A DNA stretch of 64,000 bases from Mugil cephalus (taxonomy: Eukaryota > Chordata > Actinopteri > Mugiliformes > Mugilidae), in the NCBI RefSeq assembly GCF_022458985.1, contig NC_061771.1:23862001-23926000 (forward strand), in the 5' to 3' direction. The position numbers were made by a program, and so were the translations under genes. The notes under the pieces were generated by a model. That model saw nothing but the letters and a program-made list of their open reading frames with translations, was not told where the DNA came from and did not search any database. Shown one piece after another: positions 48,660 to 51,766 of the stretch. How positions within the stretch are numbered: the stretch's first letter is position 1; each line of letters opens with the position of its first letter.

Positions 48660-48769
48660 TTACTCGGCATCTTGCTCCACCACAGTGGTCTTCTCGCTGA
48701 CATAGATGCCATCGAGGAACTTCCTGATGTCTTTCTTCCTGACTGTGGTGGCCTGCTGGATCAAAGCCG
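48660..48769 (-). CDS. rpl9: rpl9 distal last exon (VRKKD / KTTVV form)
   Basis: 110 nt after acceptor TTTCCAG. In frame with NSG-split codon it encodes [20 protein letters not shown], then [15 protein letters not shown] and TAA. A canonical AATAAA follows closely, so this exon has the better 3' end. Relative to the mammalian C-terminus it differs at KNK and KGT. Confidence 0.9.
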
Positions 48770-51766
48770 CTGGAAACAAACAGAAGAGCAAAGTTTTAGG
48801 ACGATGTTATATTATTGTGACATGCTCAGTTATCAGAGGCCTGAAAGACAGGAGCATCGATAGAGAGGAGTGTTGAAGAAGAAGCTGTAGAAGTTTGGAC
48901 ATGCAAGCTGGGGTGAAGCAGATATTTGAACCAAAAACACCTTCAGTCACTAAACAAGCAAAACTGGGCAATAGTTCATTTCATCTAATTATTTTAATAC
49001 TTCAGTCCGTGTAGCTGAAAACAATTTGACCCTACTATTGTGTTCATTTTAGCCAAATCAGTACACAGGTTGAATAAACCACACAAACTTTAACAAAATC
49101 ATCGAAAGTCTTTGAATTTTATAAGAAACGGATGAAATCAACCTGCATTTTCTTGAGAGAAAACTTGAAAATCGATCAGATTTTATCAAACACAATAGGA
49201 GGGTTTTAAAGAAGCTAAACGTTTTAGTGTCAGTGTTTCATTCATACTGCAGAGCTCCTACACATACAATAATTTAGAGCCAACAACCTGAAGCAGAAAA
49301 AGCAATTAAAAAGGAAAACGGTAAAGACGTGAAGAACATGCAGAGAAAGAAAACAGAGGTCTCCCCCTGTAGGACACGGAGGCGGCGTCGACGGCTCAAG
49401 CTAACCTCTACATGTGCAGGTGTAACGTTTACTGCTCCGCTTCCACTACTGTTCCCTTCTCGGACACGTAAATGCCGTCCAAGAACTTTCTGATATCCTT
49501 ATTTTTGACAGTGGTGGCCTGCTGGATCAGAGCGGCTGCAACACAGACGTTGGGGGTGATGAGCAACACAACACATCACACAGGGAGAGCAAACAATAAT
49601 TACAGGTAAGGTGGAGAAAAGATGTGTCAGTAAATACTGGATGACCGCTTTGTTTCATGGCTCCATTGAGTAAAACATTTAAAATACATTCACGTTTTAG
49701 CTGTAACCTGAAAAGTGGACGAAATCTACATGAAATGACAAACTAGATCAAACTTAACACAGATGCAGCGATGGTGTTGTTGTTCATTATGATCCAGAAT
49801 AAAAAGGCACCATTCATAAAAAGGTTATAATTAATTTTAAGGCACATGAACAGCAACGTGGTGACACGATCAAACTACTTTGTCCCATTCTGAAAACAGA
49901 CACGTAAACATCGAGTCCTCACAGGGACGAGTAAATTAGCTCCTAAATGCTGCTGGATGATATATATACACACACACTAATATACATCATAAGTGTAGTA
50001 ACAATTGACAGACACAGTTGATACTTTGACAGAGGTACTTAAGTGTTATATGTATATATTCTATTACTCTATATATGAGGAAAACAATTACTCTCCTATC
50101 ATGTGACAAAGCGTCAGCTACTTAAAAGGGGGATAATCTATGTTTTGCTCAACAACAGAAGAGGGAGAGGACCACGTATGAAAACAGGATTTGACAGAAC
50201 TGCTGTAGAGACTGGTCAAGTGATTGTACGAGTGGTTTCAGCCTCTACCAGACTTATCCACCTCCTCCAGTACATTAGTTCAGTCTGTTTGATGGAAGAG
50301 GAGCACGTTAAACCCTTCAAGGTAGAGTCAAATTATTTCATTACTGATCTTTTATGATTAACAATCTGCAAAATCCAAGTTATCCCGAGATGTTACGGGT
50401 CAAGTACAGGCTCAGGATCTGACCAGGGCTTCTGTTCTGTTGAGTCATGTAGAGAAACTAGGGACACACATACCTGAGTTTGACACCAGCTCGATGTCGT
50501 TACCCTCCAGGACCAGCTCGTCCTTCTGGGCAGCGGAGACGGCACAATTCACACCTGAAAACGAGAGGAGAAATATGTGTAAATAACCCACTTCAACAGG
50601 TTGATAGAAGACAGAAATTTCAACAAACCTGATCCATGTCATGTGTATTTTCTTCTCAGTTTTTAATTGGAGAAAAACAAGTTATCATCAGTGTGTGTCG
50701 AACTCACCAGGCCTCATTCGGACGCGGCGGATGTACTTCTCTCCCAGGAAGTTCCTGATCTCCACCAGGGTACCGCTCTCCTGGATGACTACGTTAATGG
50801 GGAAATGGGCGTACACAGATCGCATTTTGTATCTGAAACCCTGCAGACGGAGAGAGACGTGTGTGAGGCACCGAGCTGGACCGACAAAGCAAACAAAAAG
50901 CCCCCAACAATAGGCGGCAGTCGACCATTGAGGAAATCAACTAACCCCAGCACAGTAGAGGCCGGGGGCACAGAGCTCGTTACAGTACGCACACTCACTC
51001 AGCTACTGTTAAAATATTAAACTCACCAAAGTGACGCCCTTGATCATGTTCTGGACGTGGCTGCAGATGGTGCGGACTGTGGCAAGCTCCTTCCTGTTTC
51101 CCCACCATTTTTCCACACGAAGCTGAGGACGACGACAGACTGATCACTTTCAACGAATCATTACTAACAATTATACAACTACCAATAAATAAACGTTGTC
51201 TTAAGTGTCAACGAGCCTCTTCACAAAAATCACAGACATACAGTCACGTATGAACGTGTCATCCTTGTTTGTTAGGCTTTTATAATACTGTGTTTAACAT
51301 GAAAAAAAGGAGAAACCCTCCACATGTCGACCTCTAACCATCTGTGACTGTGACTGAGCAAATCCAACCTGACGCTGTATCTAACAGCTTCACTAAATGC
51401 ATCATGTACACATCACAATATCCTAACTAAAGCTCACTGTGGTAACATCACTGTAATCCTCAAGTACTTTAAAGTGTTTATCGTTCTACGACACGTTTTC
51501 CTCACCTTCTTCTGTTTCTTGCCGAGCAGGCTGAGCTCCAGGTTGATGTGGTTGAACTCCCTGGTGAGCTTGCCACGGGGCCCCTTAACAATCACTGTTC
51601 GGCCCTTCAACCACACCTCCACTGAAAACGACAAAAAGGACAAAAACATGGGTCAAGAAGCCACAAAAACACAGATAAATACATAAAAAGTCAATCTGCA
51701 GCCACCCGCTGGTTTCTTACCGTTGGAGGGCAGGTCAACAGTCTGACTGCTGAGAATGGTCTTCAT
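48660..51766 (-). CDS. rpl9: 60S ribosomal protein L9 (uL6), with two alternative last exons
   Basis: uL6 is a large-subunit ribosomal protein near the factor-binding region. Shared coding exons: 51766-51721, 51621-51506, 51122-51027, 50840-50708, 50554-50474. Then either 49535-49429 (192 aa, same length as human) or 48769-48660 (193 aa). Recognised blocks: [79 protein letters not shown] and [18 protein letters not shown] non-coding first exon with a terminal oligopyrimidine tract lies near 52414-52447. The gene is head-to-head with lias. I give the full span; a given mRNA should use only one last exon, because both end in a stop codon. Confidence 0.94.
48770..49428 (-). other. Spacer between the two rpl9 last exons
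   Basis: 659 bp, no other exon. After the proximal stop no AATAAA was found on the minus strand here; the best candidate is the variant ATTAAA at 48993-48998. Confidence 0.6.
49429..49535 (-). CDS. rpl9: rpl9 proximal last exon (VKNKD / KGTVV form)
   Basis: 107 nt after acceptor GTTGCAG. It encodes [20 protein letters not shown], then [14 protein letters not shown] and TAA, in the same phase as the distal exon. The KNKD and EKGTV words are the mammalian form. Over the 31 aligned codons before the tails, 28 residues are identical, while 14 codons differ only synonymously and 3 change the residue. Both exons therefore look constrained. Confidence 0.9.
49536..50473 (-). other. rpl9 intron before the alternative last exons
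   Basis: 938 bp with TA/CA-rich stretches near 49960-50080. No confident intronic snoRNA was seen. Confidence 0.6.

Follow-up and report, generated by a model that had tools for sequence, protein, structure and literature searches.

The 64,000-nt stretch of Mugil cephalus DNA analysed here (NC_061771.1, positions 23,862,001 to 23,926,000; hereafter the window, in whose numbering all positions are given) carries on its minus strand the gene rpl9, which encodes ribosomal protein uL6 (L9) and which ends in two adjacent, closely similar terminal coding exons. The minus strand of 47500-54500 was read, and the exons were placed there and joined. Exon 2 (51721-51767) has GCAG before 51767, a single exon base ahead of the start codon (51766-51764), and the donor GTAAGA after 51721. 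It is followed by exon 3 (51506-51621; AG acceptor, donor GTGAGG), exon 4 (51027-51122) and exon 5 (50708-50840), all joined in frame, and by exon 6 (50474-50554), the final coding exon common to both forms, which leaves in phase 1 through the donor CAG/GTATGT. Beyond it, on the same strand and 659 bp apart, lie the proximal terminal exon 7a (49429-49535), coding 35 residues and TAA, and the distal terminal exon 7b (48660-48769), coding 36 residues and TAA. Both are entered in phase 1, with exon 6 supplying base 1 of the first codon, and exons 2-6 joined in frame to one or the other give proteins of 192 (7a) or 193 (7b) amino acids, of which the first 157 residues are common. Placing the exons afresh thus reproduced the positions, entry phase from the 50474 donor, separate stops and spacing given in a preliminary description of this DNA. 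The introns between coding exons 2-6 measure 99, 383, 186 and 153 nt, and the last intron, of 938 or 1704 nt according to the terminal exon, is the longest. As a side observation, the intron ahead of 7a (49536-50473, 938 nt) exceeds the four between exons 2-6 in length by a factor of about 2.4 to 9.5, and it may hold splicing control elements. No known RNA was found by Rfam at gathering score in 47000-54500. On the evidence of its exons, M. cephalus can probably make two forms of uL6.

The identity of the product was established by a PDB sequence search, in which the best chain was 7oya_H1 ('60S ribosomal protein L9'), with residues 1-191 aligned (7a form, E 2.6e-114; 7b form, E 4.4e-111); the rpl9 product is a full-length uL6 with the eukaryotic C-terminal motif. 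The two tails match in 29 of 34 aligned residues (85.3%). Over codons 1-31 they differ by 14 synonymous and 3 replacement changes, a count previously reported and exact on recount, with one further synonymous change at codon 32 and divergence thereafter. When each tail was compared by tblastn with the window, the other copy was recovered at E ~1e-15 and the next best match at E 2.7, and together with the codon-level match this led to the rejection of chance resemblance. Within the window, the same comparison of the tails and the shared part revealed neither a third tail copy nor a further set of exons 2-6; apart from its own exons, the shared body matched an opposite-strand frame overlapping its own exon 3 at E 0.077, and others at E of at least 0.35.

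The substitution pattern supports an old duplication. By the Nei-Gojobori method, 14.8 of the 21.3 synonymous sites and 7.2 of the 71.7 replacement sites in the 31 codons differ, corresponding to dS 1.96, dN 0.107 and a ratio of 0.055 (dS 2.75 and ratio 0.038 over 32 codons), where dS comes from only 21.3 synonymous sites, is near saturation and is not convertible to a date. Because dS is ~2, the duplication appears old, as had been proposed together with constraint on both copies. In a simulation in which one copy evolved neutrally and the other accepted synonymous change only, none of 20000 runs ended with three or fewer replaced or stopped codons (mean 13.9, minimum 6), and 45% of runs gained a stop, at a mean of 6.2 synonymous codons, which is below the observed divergence. 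Codon choice over the first 31 codons points in the same direction: under the usage of exons 2-6, the log-likelihood is -29.9 for 7a and -29.0 for 7b, values in the range given by sequences sampled from that usage (-27.3 +/- 3.2), whereas a uniform choice among synonymous codons scores far lower (-45.8 +/- 5.0). The low dN/dS (~0.05), the neutral simulation and the codon choice therefore indicate that 7a and 7b have both been protein-coding through most of their history. Upstream of the two exons no similarity was detected, since shuffles scored at least as high as observed in 174/200 cases (150 nt) and 152/200 cases (400 nt). A recent duplication, an allelic join and a pseudo-exon were all either rejected or judged unlikely on the basis of dS, dN/dS, the simulation and this upstream dissimilarity.

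From 7a to 7b, the tail changes are K168R, N169K and G185T, together with the last residues, which are VVEAEQ in 7a and VVEQDAE in 7b, the latter tail being one residue longer. Compared with the displayed 7oya chain (191/192 residues), the body differs at 12 of 157 positions, the 7b tail at 5 of 34 and the 7a tail at none, and the 7a tail is likewise identical to 7oyb over the 34 residues displayed; we take 7oya and 7oyb to be zebrafish ribosomes. At the rate of the body, the probability of 0/34 differences is 0.067 and that of at least 5/34 is 0.114, so neither tail departs significantly, and 7a appears no less conserved than the body. Since 7a equals the 7oya tail at 34 of 34 positions while 7b differs at 5, sequence comparison identifies 7a as the ancestral vertebrate tail and 7b as the derived one. 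The 7a forms VKNKD and EKGTV occur in all seven distinct vertebrate-like chains among the PDB alignments displayed (u127912, u86261, u21359, u100909, u554, u129566 and u120642). A constructed query tail matched 57 chains, and the best 5 of 57, which were those displayed, are all plant-like. One of these five, 9h3g, reads VKKKD...EKSKIVEE and is thus changed at positions that are changed in 7b; from its 'uL6z/uL6y' name it is presumably from Arabidopsis. Since this natural uL6 has a lysine at 169 and another residue in place of the glycine at 185, the 7b tail looks compatible with ribosome assembly. Scans for relatives in a genome contig collection (two loci, L001 and L002, archaeal and bacterial) and in a viral contig collection (none) were uninformative on fish.

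The processing signals of the two exons differ. The 7b acceptor, with 15/18 pyrimidines, comes second among the 90 AG sites that lie between exon 6 and 7b, while the 7a acceptor, with 12/18, comes 23rd, so that the 'good acceptor' previously assigned to both holds for 7b and is middling for 7a. The five upstream acceptors have 11-15 of 18 pyrimidines, and 7a is not below that of exon 4 (11/18); pyrimidine counts are a crude measure of acceptors, and the score of the exon 2 acceptor was taken one base out of place (this exon begins at 51767). Ribosomal protein mRNAs usually have a short 3' end, as is the case with 7b, where the canonical hexamer AATAAA (48627-48632, minus strand) is separated from the stop by 27 nt. 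A poly(A) signal of its own is therefore present for 7b at 48632, and not clearly for 7a: the 659 bp after 7a contain no AATAAA, one ATTAAA and several rarer variants. The ATTAAA (48993-48998, minus strand), 430 nt past the 7a stop and with a T/G-rich stretch after it, is the best candidate poly(A) signal for a transcript ending after 7a. With its stronger acceptor and AATAAA near the stop, 7b looks like the efficient end. A 7a transcript may end at ATTAAA, via read-through to the 7b signal, or by splicing to 7b, and all three possible ends yield an identical protein.

A trace of the original extent of the duplication may survive after the stops. The CTCTGTTTT-CTTTCTC block after 7a (49326-49358, minus strand) can be aligned with 48567-48600, downstream of the 7b AATAAA, the shared form being CTCTGTTTT(C)CTTTCTC over 35 alignable columns, about 70 nt past the 7a stop and about 59 nt past the 7b stop. 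Its local score of 16, from a 150-nt comparison, was reached by 15/976 random 150-nt windows of the same strand. Shuffles reached the observed score in 0/200 (100 nt), 2/200 (150 nt) and 33/200 (300 nt) cases, and in 1/300 cases of a separate plain 150-nt shuffle; the block is pyrimidine-rich, so chance matches are easier. This is only suggestive of a duplicated unit that may once have included the poly(A) region, with 7a having since lost the hexamer.

Events of this general kind are known. Among 236 human tandem duplicated exon substitution events analysed, 77 were C-terminal swaps where 15 were expected, and the tropomyosin gene TPM1 has three tandem 3' exons (PMC9741552). The rpl9 pair resembles such events, TPM1 among them: adjacent homologous exons are entered in an interchangeable phase, one or the other would fix the C-terminus, both are under coding constraint, and the pair is old with mild changes. 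The abstract of that study stresses ion transporters, nerve and muscle, whereas rpl9 is a housekeeping ribosomal protein gene, and 'ribosom', 'RPL' and 'RPS' at the start of a word are absent from its main text (PMC9741552). The kind of event is therefore known, and rpl9 is an unusual gene for it. The earlier expectation that ribosomal protein genes do not offer alternative coding ends was too strong, as RPS24 has three alternatively spliced, tissue-specific microexons (3, 18 and 22 bp) at its 3' end, and splicing of RPL22L1 is cited in the same source (PMC11162997). RPS24 is a parallel to rpl9, in which the 3'-end exons are predicted to be alternatives, but rpl9 has a duplicated homologous exon of ~36 codons instead of microexons. 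A further parallel is offered by yeast RPL9A and RPL9B, whose uL6A and uL6B proteins are 98.5% identical (PMC6678285); there, two near-identical uL6 proteins in one organism come from two whole genes, whereas in rpl9 they are predicted to come from two exons of one gene.

In NCBI naming, 'isoform X1' denotes a gene with more than one predicted protein. A table in PMC6473766 carries the label 'PREDICTED: 60S ribosomal protein L9 isoform X1 [Oryzias latipes]', which does not say where the isoforms differ. Because this label hints at more than one predicted L9 product, the event may be present in medaka as well and may already stand, undiscussed, in the database. The view that the event had no known description thus needs qualifying in respect of annotation. 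It stands for the literature, in that no description of alternative rpl9 ends was among the matches listed in the open-licence literature, which is weak evidence of absence; a search of that literature for five tail strings gave no paper, and the available portions of PMC9198057 and PMC6954397 hold nothing on alternative rpl9 ends.

We consider it likely that rpl9 underwent an old tandem duplication of its last coding exon, the copies of which have been kept as homologous, mutually exclusive last exons. As both contain a stop codon, the C-terminus would be set by whichever acceptor exon 6 is joined to: splicing to 7a would yield the ancestral vertebrate tail and splicing to 7b the derived tail, each in a complete uL6. 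With its stronger acceptor and immediate AATAAA, 7b probably offers mRNA processing its efficient default route. Exon 7a would be transcribed first, but its acceptor is weaker and it lacks a canonical signal nearby, so that it is probably chosen more slowly or under regulation; transcripts ending with it would stop at ATTAAA or extend as far as the 7b poly(A) site. Transcription order would thus favour 7a, acceptor strength and 3'-end signals 7b, and trans-acting factors could shift the balance. We infer that both exons are spliced today and that both proteins enter ribosomes, and the identity of the dominant exon is likewise a prediction from its signals. Counted in favour are the intact frames (192 and 193 amino acids), the constraint on both exons, their codon choice, the changes seen in 9h3g, the long last intron, the medaka isoform label and the C-terminal excess among tandem exon events. 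Several points weigh on the other side. Exon 7a is without a close canonical poly(A) hexamer, leaving one required step unexplained; 7oya/7oyb, the one fish uL6 among the chains displayed, carries the 7a tail, as do six other vertebrate-like chains displayed; and KNKD together with a glycine at 185 is seen in four of the five displayed plant-like chains. In addition, constraint reports on the past, and one of the exons could have gone silent recently without a mark.

A variant compatible with two proteins addresses the missing poly(A) signal. Here 7a would be a cassette exon, spliced on to 7b through a donor 23 nt past its stop, so that every transcript would have its 3' end at the 7b poly(A) site, with 7b being 3' untranslated region whenever 7a is included. 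Among the 44 GT sites beyond the 7a stop, the candidate donor GAG/GTTAGC (49400-49408, minus strand; last exon base 49406) scores best, and the lack of a close AATAAA of 7a's own also fits. Were human RPL9 to have an intron immediately past its stop, the 49406 donor would be ancestral, an argument on which the variant does not draw. According to the 50-55 nt rule, the stop of a cassette 7a would lie too near the last junction for nonsense-mediated decay. The donor is a weak candidate: its predicted pairing with U1 (-5.7 kcal/mol) falls short of that of every one of the five real donors scored, those of exons 2-6 (-7.8 to -10.1 kcal/mol), and two further GT sites in the same stretch are nearly equal to it (-5.6 kcal/mol). 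The variant is possible, though well short of probable.

Comparably tentative is a regulatory switch, also compatible with splicing of both exons, in which the choice between 7a and 7b would tune the amount of stable rpl9 mRNA, through a long, weakly terminated 7a transcript or a short 7b transcript, and the proteins would be equivalent. The strong difference in predicted 3'-end signals fits this explanation, as do the mildness of the residue changes, similar ones occurring in 9h3g, and the reported redundancy of yeast uL6A and uL6B (PMC6678285). Dosage control, however, could do without a second conserved coding tail, and coding constraint is seen on both exons.

It is unlikely that a single exon is in current use while the other, recently silenced, still looks intact. 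The signals would make 7a the likelier silent copy, as they favour 7b, while protein conservation would make it 7b, as only the 7a tail matches the fish chain and all seven vertebrate-like chains displayed share its KNKD and KGTV. This explanation must also accommodate two exons that are both intact, with no stop, no frame change and no AG loss, after dS ~2 at dN/dS ~0.05. The possibility that two alleles or a second rpl9 copy were wrongly joined in the assembly, already named in the preliminary description as a potential refutation, is very improbable, as dS ~2 far exceeds allelic divergence, no similarity exists upstream of the exons (150 and 400 nt), and the window holds a single set of exons 2-6.

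The consequences of homologous, mutually exclusive last exons for the ribosome can be framed by what is known of uL6, which lies in the GTPase-associated centre and is required in yeast for efficient 60S assembly; yeast uL6A and uL6B were concluded to be functionally redundant, with the two copies serving supply (PMC6678285). This redundancy argues for a modest or dosage-type role of the tail swap. A doubtful further step is that the teleost makes two regulated kinds of large subunit from one rpl9, in which case tissue- or stage-specific tails would amount to programmed ribosome heterogeneity that arises through the choice of exon instead of through duplicated genes; under this equally doubtful extension, 7b would add positive charge (N169K) and replace a glycine (G185T) near the C-terminus of uL6. 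The case for ribosome heterogeneity is often built on whole-gene paralogues or on changes in stoichiometry, and a single core ribosomal protein gene with two selected coding ends would be a clean natural test, combining one promoter, a common first 157 residues, short tails differing at few positions, and C-terminal peptides distinct by mass spectrometry, the predicted tryptic peptides being GTVVEAEQ ([M+H]+ 832.4047) for 7a and TTVVEQDAE ([M+H]+ 991.4578) for 7b. If both exons are used, the function of such heterogeneity would be directly testable in laboratory fish.

The surroundings of rpl9 were characterized by Pfam searches of 10 neighbouring open frames, seven of which gave a match: Kelch repeats, WDR19 (two frames; first propeller), BRCT, the RFC1 C-terminal domain, LIAS (N-terminal domain) and UDP-glucose dehydrogenase, the last at 25.3 bits, marginally below the cut-off of 25.4. 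The apparent order runs from a kelch gene (~6 kb) through wdr19 (matches at 22-24 kb) and the minus-strand genes rfc1 (matches at 36 and 43 kb) and rpl9 to lias, which lies on the plus strand (53.4 kb), and ugdh, a weak match on the minus strand (~62 kb). The vertebrate order is KLHL5-WDR19-RFC1-RPL9-LIAS-UGDH, and in mammals KLB sits between RFC1 and RPL9. Because the neighbour matches fit this order, and with the closeness of the product to 7oya, the locus looks like the orthologous fish rpl9 locus. The junction of exons 1 and 2, one base ahead of the ATG, agrees with the position of a human exon 1 donor variant at c.-2+1 (PMC6954397). The genes rpl9 and lias stand head to head, ~1 kb apart (52414-53414), and a pyrimidine-rich stretch precedes the presumed rpl9 exon 1 donor, GAG/GTGAGG after 52414 (read by eye), so that the interval resembles a shared promoter with a 5' terminal oligopyrimidine (TOP) start.

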